DNA of 64,000 nucleotides from Flavobacterium alvei (GTDB lineage Bacteria > Bacteroidota > Bacteroidia > Flavobacteriales > Flavobacteriaceae): NCBI RefSeq assembly GCF_002920895.1, contig NZ_PQVG01000004.1, positions 248,001 to 312,000 on the forward strand. The letters run 5' to 3'. Below, piece by piece: positions 55,591 to 64,000 of this stretch. Each line of letters opens with the position of its first letter. Within the stretch, counting starts at the first letter, position 1. The position numbers and the translations under genes were made by a program. The notes below the pieces were generated by a model. It was not told the DNA's origin and made no database searches. It was given only the letters and a program-made list of their open reading frames with translations.

Positions 55591-56733
55591 ATGCCTAATC
55601 ATTATAAAAGAGCCGTTTTAACTGAATTTGCCCGCAAGTTACTGCCTAATAAAGTATTGATTTTGCTTGGTGCAAGGCGAGTGGGAAAAACAGCTTTTAT
55701 CAAAAATTATCTCGAAACAATTCCTGCAGATTCTTATTTGCATTTGAATGGAGAAGATATAAAAGATGCCAATTTGTTAAAAGAACGTTCGGTAAGTAAT
55801 TATAGACGGCTTTTGTCAAATGTGTCTTTGTTGGTCATTGACGAAGCGCAGCATATTCCTGATATCGGAATGATTTTGAAATTGATAGTCGATTCTATCG
55901 ATGATATAAAAGTAATCGCCACAGGATCGTCGGTTTTTGATTTGTCTAATAATTTGGGTGAACCTTTAGTGGGTCGAAAAAATACGATGTATCTTTTTCC
56001 ACTAGCACAAATAGAGTTTGCAGAGAAAGAAAATTACAAGAAAACCATCGAAAATCTTGAGCAAAGATTGCTTTTTGGAAGTTATCCAGAGCTCGAACAA
56101 TATGAAGATTGGGCAAGTAAAGAGGAGTATATCAACGAAATTATAAACTCTTATTTGCTAAAAGACATTTTGATTTTTGACGGTATCAAACATTCGAATA
56201 AAATTTATGATTTGTTGCGATTAATTGCTTTTCAAATCGGAAAAGAGGTTTCGTTACTCGAACTAGCCACGCAATTGCAGATGTCTAAAAACACGGTAGC
56301 TAATTATTTGGATTTACTTTCTAAAGTTTTTGTTTTGTTTAAAGTAGAAGGTTTTAGTCGCAATCTTCGTAAAGAAATAGTAAAATCATCTCGATGGTAT
56401 TTTTATGACAACGGCATTCGAAATGGTATTATAAACAACTTTAAAACCATTGAAAACCGTAATGATATTGGCGAACTTTGGGAAAATTATCTTGCATCCG
56501 AAAGAATAAAAAAACAGCAGTATCAAAAAATAAATACCAAAAATTATTTTTGGCGCACTTACGACCAACAAGAATTGGATTGGTTAGAGGAAAGAGGAGA
56601 AACACTCGCCGGATTTGAGTTTAAATGGAGCGAAAACAGAAAAGCAAAGATTCCTACGGCTTTCGCTAAAGGGTATCCTGAAGCCACTTTTGAAGTGATT
56701 AACAGGAGTAATTATTTAGATTTTATTCTCTAG
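55591..56733 (+). CDS. AAA_14/DUF4143 ATPase
   Basis: 380 residues. The Walker A VLILLGARRVGKTAF is near residue 29 and Walker B SLLVIDEAQHIPD near 85; KVIATGSSVFDL is the sensor. The second half is DUF4143: DILIFDGIKHSNKIYDLLRLIAFQIG, then a winged-helix-like LLELATQLQMSKNTVANYLDLLSKVFVLF. The end (RTYDQQELDWLEERGETLAGFEFKWSENRKAKIP) resembles the nuclease-like fold with the E-x-K pattern of this family. Its job is unknown; many such genes are variable between strains. The 3' end overlaps the convergent DUF1294 gene by 11 bp. Confidence 0.87.
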   Translation: MPNHYKRAVLTEFARKLLPNKVLILLGARRVGKTAFIKNYLETIPADSYLHLNGEDIKDANLLKERSVSNYRRLLSNVSLLVIDEAQHIPDIGMILKLIVDSIDDIKVIATGSSVFDLSNNLGEPLVGRKNTMYLFPLAQIEFAEKENYKKTIENLEQRLLFGSYPELEQYEDWASKEEYINEIINSYLLKDILIFDGIKHSNKIYDLLRLIAFQIGKEVSLLELATQLQMSKNTVANYLDLLSKVFVLFKVEGFSRNLRKEIVKSSRWYFYDNGIRNGIINNFKTIENRNDIGELWENYLASERIKKQQYQKINTKNYFWRTYDQQELDWLEERGETLAGFEFKWSENRKAKIPTAFAKGYPEATFEVINRSNYLDFIL

Positions 56734-57044: not shown

Positions 57045-59168
57045 ATGACCAACCTACAATTCATCTCCAAGTCTGTCAACACAGCACCTATAAACATTCA
57101 AAACACCGTTCAATTATTGCAGGAAGACTGCACGATTCCGTTTATTTCCCGTTATCGAAAAGATAAAACAGGAAATTTGGATGAAACGATTATTGAACAA
57201 ATTGCTAAACTTCAAAAAGATTACGAAACGATTATAAAGCGAAAAGAAGCGATTTTAAAATCAATCGAAGAGCAAAATGCACTTTCGCCGGAATTAAAAT
57301 CAAAAATAGATCAATCGTTCGATTTACAGGAATTGGAGGATTTTTATTTGCCGTTCAAAAAGAAGAAAAAAACCAAAGCCGATGTCGCCCGTGAAAACGG
57401 ATTGGAACCCTTGGCGAAAATCATTATGGCACAAAATAATGAGGATGTTGATTTTCTTTCGACTAAATATATCAATGAAAATGTCATCAATGAAGATGCA
57501 GCTTTACAAGGCGCAAGAGATATTATTGCCGAATGGATTAATGAAAATATCTATGTTCGTAAACAGTTGCGAAGACTTTTTCAGCGCAAAGCAACTATCA
57601 CTACCAAGGTGGTAAAAACCAAGAAAGACGAACCCGAAGCTCAAAAATTCAATCAATATTTTGATTGGTCAGAACCTTTGACCAAAGCACCATCGCACAG
57701 ATTATTAGCAATGCTTCGTGCCGAAAACGAAGGTTTTATTAAGTTTAAAGTGGAGGTTGATATTGACGAAGCTTATGATATCATTGACGAATTGGTTTTG
57801 AAAGGACAAAGTCCAAGTACGCCACACGTTCAATTAGCAATTGAAGATAGTTACAAAAGATTATTGAATCCTGCCATTTCAAACGAAATTTTACAGGAAG
57901 CCAAAGCCAAGGCGGATGCCAATTCGATTCAGGTTTTTGCCAATAATTTGGGGCAATTGTTGCTGGCACCACCTTTGGGCGAAAAACGAATTTTGGCTAT
58001 TGATCCCGGTTTTCGTTCAGGTTGTAAAGTGGTTTGTCTGGACGAAAAAGGCGATTTGCTGTACAACGAAACCATTTATCCGCACGCGCCGCAAAATGAA
58101 ACTGCAATGGCTATGAAAAAGATAAAATCGATGGTAAATGCCTATAATATTGATGCCATTTCCATCGGAAACGGAACTGCTTCCAGAGAAACGGAGTTTT
58201 TTATCAAGAAAATAGCTTTTGATAAACCCGTTCAGGTTTTTATTGTTTCAGAAGCAGGAGCATCTGTTTATTCCGCTTCGAAAATTGCGAGGGAGGAATT
58301 TCCAAATTATGATGTAACGGTTCGTGGTTCGGTTTCTATCGGAAGACGATTGTCGGATCCGTTGGCCGAATTGGTAAAAATCGACCCAAAAGCCATTGGA
58401 GTAGGGCAATACCAACATGATGTAGATCAAACCAAATTGAAAGAAGAATTAGATTCGACAGTAATCCGTTGCGTGAATTCGGTTGGAATAAACATCAACA
58501 CAGCGAGCAAACATTTGTTGAGTTACGTGAGCGGAATAGGAGAGAAGCTGGCCGAAAACATCGTACAATACCGTTCGGAAAACGGCCCTTTCGAAGACCG
58601 AAAACAATTGAAAAAAGTGCCTCGTTTGGGCGAAAAAGCGTATCAACAAGGTGTTGCTTTTATTCGAATTTCGAATGCTAAAAACCCGTTGGATAATTCG
58701 GCCGTGCATCCTGAGGCTTATCCGATTGTGGAGAAAATGGCCAAAGATTTAAAACTTTCGGTAAATGATTTGATTGCCAATAAAGAGAAAACAGCTTTGA
58801 TTAAAGTCGAAAATTATATTACACCAGAAATAGGATTGTTGACTTTAAAAGATATCATCAAAGAGCTCGAAAAACCAGGATTAGACCCTAGAAAATCAGC
58901 CAAAGTTTTTGAATTTGACCCCAATGTAAAATCAATAAAAGACTTGAAAACCGGAATGATTTTACCAGGAATTGTCAACAACATCACCAATTTTGGTTGT
59001 TTTGTCGATTTGGGAATCAAGGAAAGTGGTTTGGTTCACATCTCTCAACTCAAAGCTGGCTTCGTGAGCGATGTGAATGAAGTGGTAAAGTTACACCAAC
59101 ACGTTGAGGTAAAAGTAACAGAGGTTGATGAAGATAGAAAGAGAATTCAGTTGACGATGGTAATTTAG
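57045..59168 (+). CDS. tex: Tex, S1-domain RNA-binding transcription accessory protein
   Basis: 707 residues, in the family range. The order is an N-terminal helical region (QLLQEDCTIPFISRYRKDKTGNLDE), a YqgF-like core (ILAIDPGFRSGCKVVCLDEKG), helix-hairpin-helix motifs (ININTASKHLLSYVSGIGEKLAENIVQYRSENGPFEDRKQL) and a C-terminal S1 domain (GMILPGIVNNITNFGCFVDLGIKESGLVHISQL). Tex affects transcription and RNA metabolism. The last ~126 bp (about 59042-59168) also occur, diverged, at 63061-63186. The downstream minus-strand gene overlaps its stop codon. Confidence 0.95.
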   Translation: MTNLQFISKSVNTAPINIQNTVQLLQEDCTIPFISRYRKDKTGNLDETIIEQIAKLQKDYETIIKRKEAILKSIEEQNALSPELKSKIDQSFDLQELEDFYLPFKKKKKTKADVARENGLEPLAKIIMAQNNEDVDFLSTKYINENVINEDAALQGARDIIAEWINENIYVRKQLRRLFQRKATITTKVVKTKKDEPEAQKFNQYFDWSEPLTKAPSHRLLAMLRAENEGFIKFKVEVDIDEAYDIIDELVLKGQSPSTPHVQLAIEDSYKRLLNPAISNEILQEAKAKADANSIQVFANNLGQLLLAPPLGEKRILAIDPGFRSGCKVVCLDEKGDLLYNETIYPHAPQNETAMAMKKIKSMVNAYNIDAISIGNGTASRETEFFIKKIAFDKPVQVFIVSEAGASVYSASKIAREEFPNYDVTVRGSVSIGRRLSDPLAELVKIDPKAIGVGQYQHDVDQTKLKEELDSTVIRCVNSVGININTASKHLLSYVSGIGEKLAENIVQYRSENGPFEDRKQLKKVPRLGEKAYQQGVAFIRISNAKNPLDNSAVHPEAYPIVEKMAKDLKLSVNDLIANKEKTALIKVENYITPEIGLLTLKDIIKELEKPGLDPRKSAKVFEFDPNVKSIKDLKTGMILPGIVNNITNFGCFVDLGIKESGLVHISQLKAGFVSDVNEVVKLHQHVEVKVTEVDEDRKRIQLTMVI

Positions 59169-59887
59169 TTTATTAAATTAATCCAATAATGATGTAATTT
59201 AATTTTTTCTAAAGTAAGTCTTGAGTGATTAGAGGTATATTTACTTATTTTTATTTGAGAAAATGAATCATCTTTAACAAACTTATCGGCATTTTGCCAA
59301 GCTAAAGATGATTCATTTGGATTTTTATTTTCTTCCTCAATCCAAGAGTTAATTTGTTGGAACCAATGATTCTGGTTTTCACTTTGAATGTAACCAATAA
59401 TTACTGCTTGATTAGATTTAATATCTTGTCCGTGAACTTCTTTTCTAAATCGTTCAACTGCTCCTAAATTTCCAAATAAGTATTCTTTTTTTCTGGAATT
59501 CCCTGGTGTTGGCAGTCTTTTGGCTTCAATAACTAATATTTTGCCTGTATTGTGGGTCTCTTTTCCTAAAATTACACCAATGTCATAACTTCGATGCTTT
59601 TCGCCAGAGGATTGGTTTTCAAATATAAAATGATAGAAATCTGATTTAAGAATTTCATTGTATTTAAAATTTCTTTCTTGGCTATTCAAAAATCTATGGA
59701 ATTGTTCGGTTATTTTATTTTCTCCTTGGATAGTATTTGGTAAATTTTGAAAATCAAAACTTTTTGAAATATATGATGGAAATAAGGAGATTTTTTCTTC
59801 AATAAAATTAAAAAATTCTAATTGATAGGATTTTCTAATAATATCAAACTCTTTTGGTTTTTTATATGTGTTTTGCGCTTTCCTCAT
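59165..59887 (-). CDS. PD-(D/E)XK-like protein paired with the DNA methylase
   Basis: 240 residues from the ATG at 59887, two bases after the methylase stop; a TTG further up is less likely. A helical N-terminal half precedes SYDIGVILGKETHNTGKILVIEAKRLP. The spacing of Asp102, Glu121 and Lys123 (D-x18-E-x-K) fits a PD-(D/E)XK nuclease core. The partner methylase suggests that it is the restriction nuclease of a two-gene restriction-modification or defence system. I know no named family for it, and the nuclease call rests on this one motif. AT-rich; its stop codon touches the tex stop. Confidence 0.6.
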   Translation of the reverse strand: MRKAQNTYKKPKEFDIIRKSYQLEFFNFIEEKISLFPSYISKSFDFQNLPNTIQGENKITEQFHRFLNSQERNFKYNEILKSDFYHFIFENQSSGEKHRSYDIGVILGKETHNTGKILVIEAKRLPTPGNSRKKEYLFGNLGAVERFRKEVHGQDIKSNQAVIIGYIQSENQNHWFQQINSWIEEENKNPNESSLAWQNADKFVKDDSFSQIKISKYTSNHSRLTLEKIKLHHYWINLIN

Positions 59888-59888
59888 A

Positions 59889-62800
59889 TTAAAAACCTGC
59901 TTCAATCATTTCGTCAAAAACATCATCAACATCACGTAAAGCAATTGATTTTAACCAGTATCTTAGGTTTTTTGGTTTTATAAGCGTGATTGTATTCTCT
60001 CCATATATTTTCAACACTCTATTTACTACTGCATTTCTAGAAATATTATTTCTAATAATTTCATCTATCTCAAATTCTGCATTTTTAATAATTTGTTTTT
60101 CATAACTTTCGTTACTATAATAAAATTCTAAGGCATAAAAATCATTGCCAATAAAGAGTTTTCTTAATCGTTGTTCTTTATCTTCTTTTTTATAAATTGA
60201 ATTGAATGATTGGTTGAAAATGTCTTCAAATTCGTTTAATTCAATAATTGTAGCAATTTCATTTACTTTTGGTTTCTTTTCATACCATGATGGATAGATG
60301 TTATCTAAAACATCATTCATTACAATTTTTTCAGCAAATGAAATCTGAATTTCATCTGAATTTAAAGGGATTGTCCAATTGTCAATTTCTTTTTTTGTAA
60401 TTACAGAGGATTTACCAAGAAAAAATTTTGAGCAAGTTGATACTGTTTTTAAGGCATTTATTTTTTCGTTTACTTTTATTTTGTTTTCAAATGAAATAAT
60501 GTCTTTTTTATTTAATTCAGCAAATGAAATACCAACAATTTGCGAGTCATAAGCAACATCACAATTATGAGTTAGGTAAAATAATTTACCATTAAGGATA
60601 TTTTCCCTTATAGTCATTAAAGGTCCTAAAAATGCTTTTTCATTAGGAACATAATAAAAATCGAAATTTTCAGGAAATTTAATTAATTTATTTTCTTTAA
60701 AATTCGAAACGAACAATACGTCTTTATTTGAAGCATAGTCACAAAAGAAATTTTTACCATCAATCTTTCCTTGAGGAGTACCTTTCATAAAACCTTCACT
60801 ATAAGCTCTTTCATCAATCCCTAAATGGTTTAAAACATAATCTTTTAAATTCGTTTGAAAACTGTTTGTAACATTCAATTTTTTTATCAAATGATTCAGC
60901 CTATTTCCTCCTAAAAGGTTAGACCTCCAGATGGTATCATCTTCTAAAATTTGATTTTTTGAAAGTTCATGAAAATCATAATAATCAAATTCAAATGATA
61001 AACCCTCGATAGTATTTTTTAATAATCTAGAAACAATATGCAACGTATTGTAATCTTCTACTTTTTCTTTTTTATAAAAAATTGCACAGGATTCAACAGC
61101 TGTAGAGGCCGTTTTTTTAAGTTTCCCATTTTCATAAATTGGTTTTCCTAAATCATCTACTGTGGTTTTACTTTTAGATTTGTATAAATAATTCTTTAAT
61201 AATGTAAAATCAATTATTTGATGCACATAAAATTGATTAAAAAGACTATTTCTAAATTCTTTAACACCTTTCCCTTTATTAAAAAGTAATGAAGTTGATT
61301 TTTGAATAAAACACAAATCTGCTTTTGGTTTTAGAAGAACGCTACTGGCTTCTAAAAACATCAATGCTAACTGATTATCAGGAATTTTAACAGAAAATTC
61401 AAAATTTATTTCTTGTTTTAATTTTTTTGTTATAGTAGAATATTCGGGTTTTTCTTTATTTTCTGTAAGAGGAAAAAACGGAGGATTTCCTATAATTAAA
61501 TCAAAACTTTCATGAAAATTATGGTATTTTTCTTTGCTAAGAAAATCAAAAAAATCTTCTTGAAAAATATTTTCATTTTCTAAATTTTCAAAAACTTTTT
61601 CATCATTCCAAGTCCATAATTCATCATTTGGAACTAATTGACATAACGCTAATTGCAAACTAAATTTTGTTAACTTTACAGCAGTAGGGTGTAAATCAAC
61701 CCCAAAAATATTTTTAGTTAAAATATCTTTTACTTCTTTTAAAGTTGGATTTGGTAAATAAGTAGGTCTTCCTGCTTCAACCCATTTTCTTACTCTTAAA
61801 CGCTGCACCAAACGTTTAAAAGCAGTAGTTATAAATATACCACTGCCGCAACTTACATCTGCTAATTTTACATTGGTTTTTAAATCTTCTTCATTTGCAG
61901 ATATTGGCAAACACTCATCTATTAATAAATTAACTAAATGGCTTGGTGTGTAAACGGTACCTTTGTTCTTATCTTCTTCTTTTTGAATAAACTCTTCATA
62001 AAAATTACTAATAAGTTCAATTGGCATATATTTAAAAGAATATTCTTGCCACAACGATATTTGATTTCCTTTATCTAAAGTTCCATCTAAATGTTCGGCA
62101 AGAGTTTCAAGACTATTTTCTTTTAGGTAATTTTCTCTCTTTTCTTTCTCAATTAAATCAATATTTCCGTTTTTATCTCTAGGAGAAATTTCAAAAACAC
62201 CACCATTAAAATGACCCTCTAAAGCAGTAAATAAATCAATTATTTTTTTATTAGATAGAATTTCATTTAATGTGTTATAGCCAATTTTGTTTTTTTTGTA
62301 AAATTTTTGAGCGTATTCTAAACCATTTTCCTCTAAATATTTTATAAGAATACACTTAAACAATAAATCTTCGGCAAAGTCTTTTTTTAAGCTTTTATTT
62401 GTAAAATCCTTAATAAATCCAAATTTGATTTTATTTAAAATTTCCACTAGTTTTTCATAAGCAGAAGTATTTTTCAGAAAATGTTTAGAATTATCTCTAT
62501 TTTCCCAAAAAAGACCTGAATTTAATTTTTTTGCATTAAAAAAACCTTTTAAAATTTTTAGTTTTTCTTCTACGTTAAATGGAGTTTCTTTAATTAAGCA
62601 ATTCAGATTAGAAATTTGATTATCAATTAGTTTAACAGATTCTTTTGTGTCAAATAATTGGATTGAAACTGTATCAACAACAACTATTAATGCTACTTGA
62701 TTACTACTATAAACATTTCTATGAATCTCGGCAATTTTGTTTTTATCATAAATTCCATTTGAATTATCATAAAAATAAACTTGAGGAACACAAAAACGAT

Positions 62801-63008
62801 TGTCATCATAATATTTGAAGTAAACAGCATCAGCTTCAAGGTTTTCGGCAAATTCAAGCGCAATATAATGTTTTGGATGAAGGTTTGAAGAAGGATTTTT
62901 AGTAAAAACAATTTCAGGAAAATCATTTTTAATAGAAGGATCAGAACTAAAAAAATCTAATTTTTTTAGTACATCAACTAAAAATTCATTTTCTCGAACT
63001 TTTTCCAT
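59889..63008 (-). CDS. N-6 adenine DNA methylase-like protein of a possible restriction system
   Basis: 1039 residues from the ATG at 63008. The N-terminal ~370 residues form an unassigned domain (AVYFKYYDDNRFCVPQVYFYDNSNG). Then come SAM motif I, LADVSCGSGIF near residue 383, and catalytic motif IV, DLIIGNPPFF near 508, of gamma-type adenine methylases. The C-terminal half would be target recognition (NRLNHLIKKLNVTN...). The N-terminal domain plus methylase plus recognition layout resembles single-chain Type IIG-like enzymes, but I see no nuclease motif in it, so the small partner may supply it. The frame is open 21 codons further, into the copied tex segment, but a -7 box at 63013-63020 supports the ATG. 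The gene is AT-rich and probably acquired. Confidence 0.75.
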   Translation of the reverse strand: MEKVRENEFLVDVLKKLDFFSSDPSIKNDFPEIVFTKNPSSNLHPKHYIALEFAENLEADAVYFKYYDDNRFCVPQVYFYDNSNGIYDKNKIAEIHRNVYSSNQVALIVVVDTVSIQLFDTKESVKLIDNQISNLNCLIKETPFNVEEKLKILKGFFNAKKLNSGLFWENRDNSKHFLKNTSAYEKLVEILNKIKFGFIKDFTNKSLKKDFAEDLLFKCILIKYLEENGLEYAQKFYKKNKIGYNTLNEILSNKKIIDLFTALEGHFNGGVFEISPRDKNGNIDLIEKEKRENYLKENSLETLAEHLDGTLDKGNQISLWQEYSFKYMPIELISNFYEEFIQKEEDKNKGTVYTPSHLVNLLIDECLPISANEEDLKTNVKLADVSCGSGIFITTAFKRLVQRLRVRKWVEAGRPTYLPNPTLKEVKDILTKNIFGVDLHPTAVKLTKFSLQLALCQLVPNDELWTWNDEKVFENLENENIFQEDFFDFLSKEKYHNFHESFDLIIGNPPFFPLTENKEKPEYSTITKKLKQEINFEFSVKIPDNQLALMFLEASSVLLKPKADLCFIQKSTSLLFNKGKGVKEFRNSLFNQFYVHQIIDFTLLKNYLYKSKSKTTVDDLGKPIYENGKLKKTASTAVESCAIFYKKEKVEDYNTLHIVSRLLKNTIEGLSFEFDYYDFHELSKNQILEDDTIWRSNLLGGNRLNHLIKKLNVTNSFQTNLKDYVLNHLGIDERAYSEGFMKGTPQGKIDGKNFFCDYASNKDVLFVSNFKENKLIKFPENFDFYYVPNEKAFLGPLMTIRENILNGKLFYLTHNCDVAYDSQIVGISFAELNKKDIISFENKIKVNEKINALKTVSTCSKFFLGKSSVITKKEIDNWTIPLNSDEIQISFAEKIVMNDVLDNIYPSWYEKKPKVNEIATIIELNEFEDIFNQSFNSIYKKEDKEQRLRKLFIGNDFYALEFYYSNESYEKQIIKNAEFEIDEIIRNNISRNAVVNRVLKIYGENTITLIKPKNLRYWLKSIALRDVDDVFDEMIEAGF

Positions 63009-63012
63009 ACTA

Positions 63013-63020
63013 CAAAAATA
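63013..63020 (-). promoter_or_regulatory. -7 element of the methylase gene, leaderless start
   Basis: Minus-strand TATTTTTG matches TAnnTTTG and ends four bases before the ATG at 63008, so the transcript should be leaderless. It also argues against the longer open frame. No TTG is seen at -33. Confidence 0.5.
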
Positions 63021-63060
63021 ATTTTTTGGATTGAGAAAATCTATTTTTAAGGACTTTATT

Positions 63061-63186
63061 TCCCAACTCAAAGCAGGATTTGTGAGTGATGTAAATGTAG
63101 TTGTGAAATTACACCAACACGTTGAAGTAAAAGTAACGGAGGTGGCTGAAGATAGAAAGAGAATTCAGTTGACGATGGTTTTGTAA
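63061..63186 (+). pseudogene. Second copy of the tex 3' end
   Basis: An in-frame copy of the last ~42 codons of tex, ending with a TAA where tex has TAG. About 88% of bases match; most changes are silent, and only three residues differ over the 36 from GFVSDV to the end. The final 30 bases before the last codons are identical. There is no start codon or upstream Tex sequence, so it is a remnant. It marks the far side of the methylase/nuclease module. Confidence 0.92.
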
Positions 63187-63194
63187 AATAAAAA

Positions 63195-63222
63195 AGCCAG
63201 TTTCAAGATTTTGAGACTGGCT
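63195..63222 (-). terminator. Terminator of the last barrel gene
   Basis: The 12-bp stem AGCCAGTTTCAA (63195-63206) with 63211-63222 has one G-T pair and a 4-nt loop. On the minus strand a T run follows. It lies 20 bp downstream of the barrel gene stop. Confidence 0.75.
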
Positions 63223-63242
63223 ATACTTTTAGAATTACTATT

Positions 63243-63845
63243 TTATAACTGAATTACACCACCAAGATTGAAGCTGTAACCAGCATTGACTACACGAAAA
63301 TCTGTTGCTTTATTTATATTAGTCAAACCATTGAAGAATTGTGCATCAATTAAAATTCCGAATTTTTCTGTAATCCCAATTTTATAACCAATACCATATG
63401 TAAATCCTAACTGAAAAGATTCAATAGCTGATGAAGGAATTTTTTCAGATGTACCATTATATTTTGCAGTTGCTTTTGTTAAAAAAGAAGGACTTAAGCC
63501 AAAATTCAAATTCCATTTTCGTGTGCTACCAAAATGCCAATTGGCATTGATTGGAATGCTTAAATAGTTTAAAATATCCTCGTATTTATCCTCAGCATCA
63601 GTATTTGTTCCTCCCATTTTATCAAATATCAAACCCGAACGTAAACTCCACCTATTGTTAAAATAATAATCAGCAGTTACTCCAAATTGTACACCTGAAT
63701 TGTATTTAGAGGAATCATATTCACTATTTTCATAAAAACTTGAGCTTCCAATTTTTGGAGTAATTTCCATAGTTCCTTTGTTTCTAGTTTGAGCATTTGT
63801 GTATCCCATTGATACTAAAGCTAGTACTAATAATAATTTTTTCAT
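63243..63845 (-). CDS. Outer-membrane beta-barrel protein
   Basis: 200 residues. A signal peptide (MKKLLLVLALVSMGYTNAQ) precedes amphipathic strands (GVQFGVTADYYFNNRWSLRSGLIFDKMGG, KWNLNFGLSPSFLTK, LGFTYGIGYKIGITEKFGILIDAQFFNG) and a terminal strand GYSFNLGGVIQL. It belongs to the PorT/OMP_b-brl type of small barrel. Specific role unknown. It has its own terminator, lies just beyond the tex duplicate, and is probably the original downstream neighbour of tex. Confidence 0.78.
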   Translation of the reverse strand: MKKLLLVLALVSMGYTNAQTRNKGTMEITPKIGSSSFYENSEYDSSKYNSGVQFGVTADYYFNNRWSLRSGLIFDKMGGTNTDAEDKYEDILNYLSIPINANWHFGSTRKWNLNFGLSPSFLTKATAKYNGTSEKIPSSAIESFQLGFTYGIGYKIGITEKFGILIDAQFFNGLTNINKATDFRVVNAGYSFNLGGVIQL

Positions 63846-63878: not shown

Positions 63879-63953
63879 AAAATTTTAGTTGAAAAAGAAA
63901 AGAAAAAAATCGATAATTTAAGCTTGTTAAATCTATTTTGAAGATAGAGTAAA

Positions 63954-64000
63954 ATGAATCCAGCTGACGATGATATTATAAAAATATTGATTTCCGTCAG
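63954..64000 (+). CDS. Possible start of a gene cut by the window edge
   Basis: An ATG at 63954 opens a frame (MNPADDDIIKILISV) that runs off the right edge. It is divergent from the barrel gene and follows a 108-bp gap. Fifteen codons are too few to identify it; it may be chance. Confidence 0.3.
   Translation, partial: MNPADDDIIKILISV

Follow-up and report, generated by a model that had tools for sequence, protein, structure and literature searches.

Partial copies of the tex 3' end mark a probable recurrent entry point for gene cassettes in Flavobacterium

The 3' end of tex in Flavobacterium is probably a site at which small cassettes, each with one to three genes, have entered again and again. 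Cassettes can stack at this site together with scars, a scar being a downstream repeat of part of the tex end. Among the explanations weighed, the best was recombination through the tex end, neither specific to restriction-modification (R-M) systems nor driven by an integrase, and we hold it to be the probable one. The evidence came from one 64,000-nt stretch of Flavobacterium alvei DNA, called the window throughout, and from a survey of tex loci across the genus.

Materials and methods

A total of 150 Flavobacterium genomes were screened, and a tex end was found in 138. The DNA downstream of tex from 100 genomes, together with the window, formed a first set of 101 stretches, of which 14 were short. 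These first 100 loci were drawn from the 138 genomes mostly by rank and assembly quality, with second matches already visible at selection. Later loci were added by rank, except that of G391, which was chosen for its second match and in which no scar was found despite that match. The final set, extended with named genomes and further relatives, consisted of 273 tex-end loci, reduced to 206 by dropping duplicates and loci with less than 300 nt downstream; the survey left out several genomes for which a second match had been reported (e.g., G204, G231, G271, G277 and G395). Surveyed loci and genomes are denoted L### and G###. One of the 206 loci, L161, was a piece of tex only 87 nt long at the edge of a contig, from the same genome as L077; this genome thus had two tex ends on different contigs, for which another scar, a mixed assembly or some other cause is possible.

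Under the common repeat criterion, the last 300 nt of a gene were compared with the 5 kb downstream at E 1e-4, and the match had to end within 12 nt of the stop (≤12 nt). In the strand control, the last 21 nt of the tex region of each genome were searched for with at most 4 mismatches. The labels of tatA and of the GH3-family gene were confirmed with Pfam on one copy each; the neighbouring gene c1 had no Pfam match and hence carries a plain label. Cassette sharing between genomes was tabulated for 449 pairs, and the pairs named below are among the matches listed.

Results

The tex repeat and the module in the window

Intact tex (57045-59168, + strand; 707 aa) carried Tex_N, Tex_YqgF, HHH and S1 domains, and its 3' end was the insertion point. 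The original prediction of a tex-end duplication about 88% identical, in frame and with a stop at the same codon was confirmed as a gap-free direct repeat of 122 nt with 88% identity between 59040-59161 and 63058-63179 (blastn E 2e-40). By the repeat alignment, the left copy (59040-59168, + strand) belonged to tex, and with it as the gene's end the 707-aa ORF was complete; tex was unbroken, as had been claimed. The right copy, scar 1 (63058-63186, + strand), kept the tex reading frame, and its stop (63184-63186) was the codon equivalent to the tex stop.

The AT-rich, two-gene, minus-strand module expected between the copies was present, with a G+C content of 25.8% compared with 38.2% in tex and 34.2% in the window. 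No recombinase was found in the window interval, in agreement with the claimed absence of an integrase or transposase. The larger gene (59889-63008, - strand) encoded an N6-adenine DNA methylase of the Eco57I type (1039 aa; PF07669, E 4e-22). Its start is most likely the ATG at 63008, because the homologue in L179 begins at the matching residue, and the gene would therefore not overlap the right tex copy. The smaller gene (59165-59905, - strand; 246 aa from a TTG) was taken as a putative partner nuclease of the methylase from its pairing with the latter and a conserved E-A-K. Because of the methylase domain and the gene pairing, the two are predicted to form an R-M pair. In the putative nuclease, E127-A128-K129 was invariant across 4 aligned homologues; no match was obtained in Pfam, PADLOC or NCBIfam at E 0.001, and its low-confidence fold model (pLDDT 59) had no match at E 0.001, with McrC at rank 7 (E 0.06).

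The putative nuclease gene and tex were convergent and overlapped by 4 nt (59165-59168), the nuclease stop codon lying within the last tex codons. In L179 the same R-M pair lay downstream of tex in the orientation of the window, with no scar found and, unlike the 4-nt overlap in the window, with the nuclease gene ending ~70 nt from tex. In L094 a distant R-M pair lay downstream of tex in the orientation opposite to that of the window, again with no scar found. A relative of the R-M pair in L275 was downstream of the GH3 gene, not of tex, at about +2544 to +6328 from tex.

The barrel gene and the order of arrival

Scar 1 was followed by a terminator-like stretch (63187-63230, + strand) and then by a gene for a 200-aa outer-membrane beta-barrel protein (63243-63845, - strand), which probably entered this site as an earlier cassette. 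The barrel gene lay shortly downstream of tex in 11 loci, as the direct neighbour in 7 and with another cassette between in 4; the intervening cassettes were the R-M pair (window), a DUF433/DUF5615 pair (L114) and a PDC-S01 ATPase (L296, and in pieces in L064). The terminator-like stretch was similar by eye in 5 of the 7 relatives with tex directly before the barrel gene, and differed in L319 and L074. These 7 relatives, all of other species, had the arrangement predicted for genomes lacking the module, a single tex end and then the barrel gene, and they bear out the claim that the right copy is the displaced original end. Because the same tex-barrel setting was found in 7 species, the right copy would have been the working end of tex before the module arrived.

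Behind the barrel gene, and outside the interval first described, there was a weak second tex-end remnant, scar 2 (63939-63981, + strand), with its stop (63979-63981) at the same codon. Scar 2 was not significant on its own by profile (nhmmer E 0.04-0.17), and was one of the tex-strand matches of the strand control. A remnant behind the barrel gene was clearer in L097, at the same place, and faint in L104. Because the remnant behind it ends at the same codon, the barrel gene looks like an earlier arrival than the R-M module.

Frequency and shape of scars

Scars were found downstream of tex in 13 of the 206 loci, the window among them. In the first set, a second tex end was present in 8 of 101 stretches including the window and in 7 of 100 without it. 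Behind tex, the strand control returned 14 matches on the strand of tex, spread over 12 of the 206 loci, and 0 on the opposite strand. Under the common repeat criterion, a repeat of the tex 3' end was found in 13/202 loci, compared with 0/187 for the GH3 gene and 0/186 for c1 (together 0/373; Fisher test, 1e-6) and with 10/1841 for all genes, several of these being apparently tandem paralogues (Fisher test, 3e-8). Removing the window, and also L282, L306, L323 and L334, four loci whose genomes had a second match on report, left 9/197 for tex and a Fisher value of 6e-5. In other genera, 0 of 37 genomes with a clear tex match had a second partial tex end among the matches listed; at the protein level the count for Flavobacterium was 6/100 (P = 0.19 against other genera). 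Where other sequence separated tex from the marker genes, most loci had no scar, including L179, L094, L296, L064 and L114.

Scar 3' ends fell at the tex stop or within a few bases of it, which is also where tex similarity between species stops anyway. Scar starts were spread from about -280 to -26 relative to the stop; L065 and L323 had a common scar junction, and a few other starts were near one another. Later decay of scar starts may be part of the cause of this spread. The weakest of the 13 scars was that of L097 (19 nt exact).

Origin of the copies

Between the two window copies, 13 of 15 differences were at third codon positions (P = 0.004 against 0.5). The third-position share was 0.83 between species (5307 pairs with 10-20 differences), and for a drifting functionless duplicate it is expected, by our own estimate, to be about 0.5. 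The likelihood ratio for two formerly functional ends over a drifting duplicate was 84 in the window, 90 in L137, 42 in L065 and weak in L175 (2.8); a drifting duplicate fitted better in 5 of the 9 countable scar loci (L323, L073, L282, L129 and L306).

The third-position counts of these five loci would suit a tex end duplicated in place long ago in this lineage, the genes between the copies being later arrivals. Against this origin stand the 13 of 15 third-position differences in the window, the genes or gene remnant lying between the two tex copies in each of the 13 scar loci, and the differences in cargo and repeat length among loci; we regard it as highly improbable.

Because of the 13 of 15 third-position differences, a foreign tex end is favoured in the window, from a donor that cannot be placed. 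The claim that the incoming DNA brought a tex end from a relative therefore stood in part: the third positions agreed with it, and against it no nearby donor was found and both copies looked native in L065 and L323. Placing the window copies by similarity was tried and abandoned; with 122 nt and relatives at 84-91%, native could not be told from foreign, and the ten relatives closest in the body of tex averaged 84% to the left and to the right copy alike.

Cargo and layout of the site

The common cassette-free layout in the genus was tex, tatA, c1 and the GH3-family gene. The first of the marker genes (tatA, c1 or the GH3 gene) started >700 nt past tex in 87 of the 191 loci where a marker was found, and different cassettes adjoined tex in different genomes. 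Counted by sequence cluster and named from cluster representatives, the cargo included Septu PtuA/PtuB (4 loci: L276, L087, L088 and L287), a PDC-S01 ATPase (7 loci), a DUF433/DUF5615 pair (5 loci), a DUF6922/AbiEii-type pair (6 loci), an ABC-3C-like set (L103 and L090), an R-M pair (window, L179 and L094), a hydrolase with Yip1 and DUF2089 genes (7-9 loci) and a sigma factor with a barrel (L137 and L239). Cargo of the GH8 enzyme, DUF5122 surface-protein and barrel kinds, common in parts of the genus, may be old. In the window, a PDC-S01 (AAA_14/DUF4143) ATPase was encoded upstream of tex (55591-56733, + strand), and its relatives were cassettes behind tex in other species.

Besides the window with its two scars, stacking was seen in L276, in which three cassettes were separated by two scars, in the order tex, Septu, scar, PDC-S01, scar, a DUF6922 gene with a shortened AbiEii-like relative, and tatA; the shortened AbiEii-like protein had itself no Pfam or PADLOC match.

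Cargo of the scar loci comprised R-M, Septu, ABC-3C-like, DUF433/DUF5615, hydrolase, sigma-factor, surface-protein and other genes, and among the 13 loci R-M cargo was found in the window only. A transposition-like R-M insertion, in which the module itself makes a long target duplication as in Helicobacter pylori, would agree with the long duplication that flanks the R-M pair in the window, and long, variable target duplications have been described for inserting R-M systems in passages of PMC3031569. Like scars, however, lay behind Septu, ABC-3C-like, DUF433/DUF5615, hydrolase and sigma-factor cassettes, and the R-M relative behind the GH3 gene in L275 had no GH3-end repeat under the common criterion, so that we consider such a transposition very unlikely. 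From the original prediction of an H. pylori-like insertion, the insertion with a long target duplication was retained; its R-M specificity was dropped, since the same duplication accompanied diverse cargo, toxin-antitoxin-like and non-defence genes included.

Sharing of cassettes between genomes

L065 and L323 shared a cassette that was 96.5% identical, with the same scar junction, and their tex genes were 86.3% identical. In the interior of the repeat, 9 sites (-171 to -45) grouped by genome and 0 by side; grouping by side was confined to the outer edges (-200, -196, -5 and beyond), and there were 2 crossing sites, at -72 and +44. Apparently, the recipient's own tex end was duplicated onto both sides through two crossovers at the outer repeat edges; later conversion between the copies could have produced the pattern instead.

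Crossovers at the outer repeat edges of L065 and L323 would also be produced by site-specific integration, in which a tyrosine or serine recombinase acts in trans, the tex 3' end is the attachment site and cassettes carry a tex end that restores the gene. Inserts at the same gene end and the whole tex of the window agree with such integration. One fixed recombinase core is disfavoured because scar starts are scattered between about -280 and -26. In addition, no recombinase was found among the matches listed for the 61 cargo proteins searched (254 cargo ORFs, 63 clusters), one cargo Pfam search having listed matches for 25 of 74 families, complete at E 1e-14 or better; and plasmids and phages had no tex end at ≥80% identity. 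Site-specific integration is thus judged unlikely.

Between L125 and L132, identity was 93-95% over the last ~180 nt of tex, 81-95% further upstream and 90-100% across the cassette, and high similarity resumed in tatA after a short gap. As support for spread through the tex end this pair is weak. Such a stretch of similarity, which takes in the tex tail, the cassette and tatA, would also suit a plain double crossover in both flanking conserved genes, with the tex copies as incidental old tandem duplications, and passages of PMC5635113 give such crossovers for many hotspots. A double crossover, however, makes no second tex end by itself, and the two conserved downstream genes had 0/373 repeats; this explanation is unlikely.

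In L169/L175 and in L101/L216, the exchanged block started ~100 nt past the stop and had its borders inside the insert; therefore, some exchanges proceeded without use of tex. The gene shared by L169 and L175, from a DUF5122 surface-protein cluster, was 97% identical over about +106 to +2620, with tex differing by about 15-19%, and the borders of the shared block were near gene ends. Across eight hand-picked cassette families, excluding loci with <900 nt of tex (e.g., L161), the tex tail of cassette-sharing pairs was slightly more alike, by 1.4% identity over the last 90 nt (58 non-independent pairs), a weak overall sign that the donor's tail travels with the cassette; the excess was nil further inside tex, and nil for the pair of the window and L179.

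Discussion

Under recombination through the tex end, donor DNA with a tex end and a cassette would recombine homologously with the tex of the recipient. In a founding insertion, the junction on the far side would be illegitimate and lie within the recipient tex end, the rest of which would become the scar. Once between two tex ends, a cassette could move on to further genomes through homologous recombination at both flanks, duplicating the recipient's tex end, and the cassette adjacent to tex would be the most recent. In the window, the methylase/nuclease pair would then be the newest cassette, placed ahead of the older barrel cassette, with the left copy keeping tex whole. A broader reading is offered tentatively: an integrase-free cassette system, in which cassettes bordered by tex ends, often anti-phage, would cross species by general recombination, be received always at the tex end and stack by order of arrival.

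R-M genes of H. pylori were reportedly found by Nobusato et al. in 2000 to insert with a long target duplication. The features of such an insertion were present at tex, namely a flanking direct repeat and, in 7 relatives of other species, an uninterrupted single target. Both cases have a long, variable direct target repeat around an R-M module; at tex, in contrast, one gene end was struck repeatedly, the cargo was diverse, scars were stacked and copies could be 12% apart. Integrons, with an IntI integrase and attC sites, line up small gene cassettes between repeated sites. The tex site resembles them in its small stacked cassettes with repeated sites between, and differs in cargo without a visible integrase and in a repeat that is the end of a protein-coding gene.

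Hotspots that lack mobile elements and are tied to recombination in the core genes beside them are described in passages of PMC5635113. As portrayed there, they share with the tex site an interval bounded by core genes, varied content and no integrase seen, whereas the tex site keeps partial copies of the flanking gene and suggests the order of arrival. Homology-facilitated illegitimate recombination has been described in laboratory transfer (parts of PMC3240628); one homologous and one illegitimate junction, as in those parts, would yield a scar with a variable start, whereas at tex the process is deduced from natural genomes and would be followed by homologous spread. In pneumococcus, according to portions of PMC3784515, merodiploids arise via natural transformation by interchromatid pairing of repeats, with duplications of about 100-900 kb. 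On that account, recipient sequence is duplicated through repeat pairing in both cases, and the tex duplications differ in being only about 0.03-0.3 kb and in surrounding a cassette.

In a literature search with most subscription journals outside it, none of the papers listed described insertions at the tex end, or one gene end gathering varied cassettes with scars between. Hotspots at core genes and long duplications around R-M genes were already known.

The route by which defence genes enter hotspots without mobile elements is an open question. The tex-end copies are a record of stepwise gene gain without a visible integrase or transposase. Through them some arrivals can be recognized, put in a likely order and traced to a junction, so that the mechanism can be tested on genome data as well as with a strain in the laboratory. 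With some of its cassettes anti-phage, the tex locus is also a place in which to seek new defence systems in Flavobacterium.
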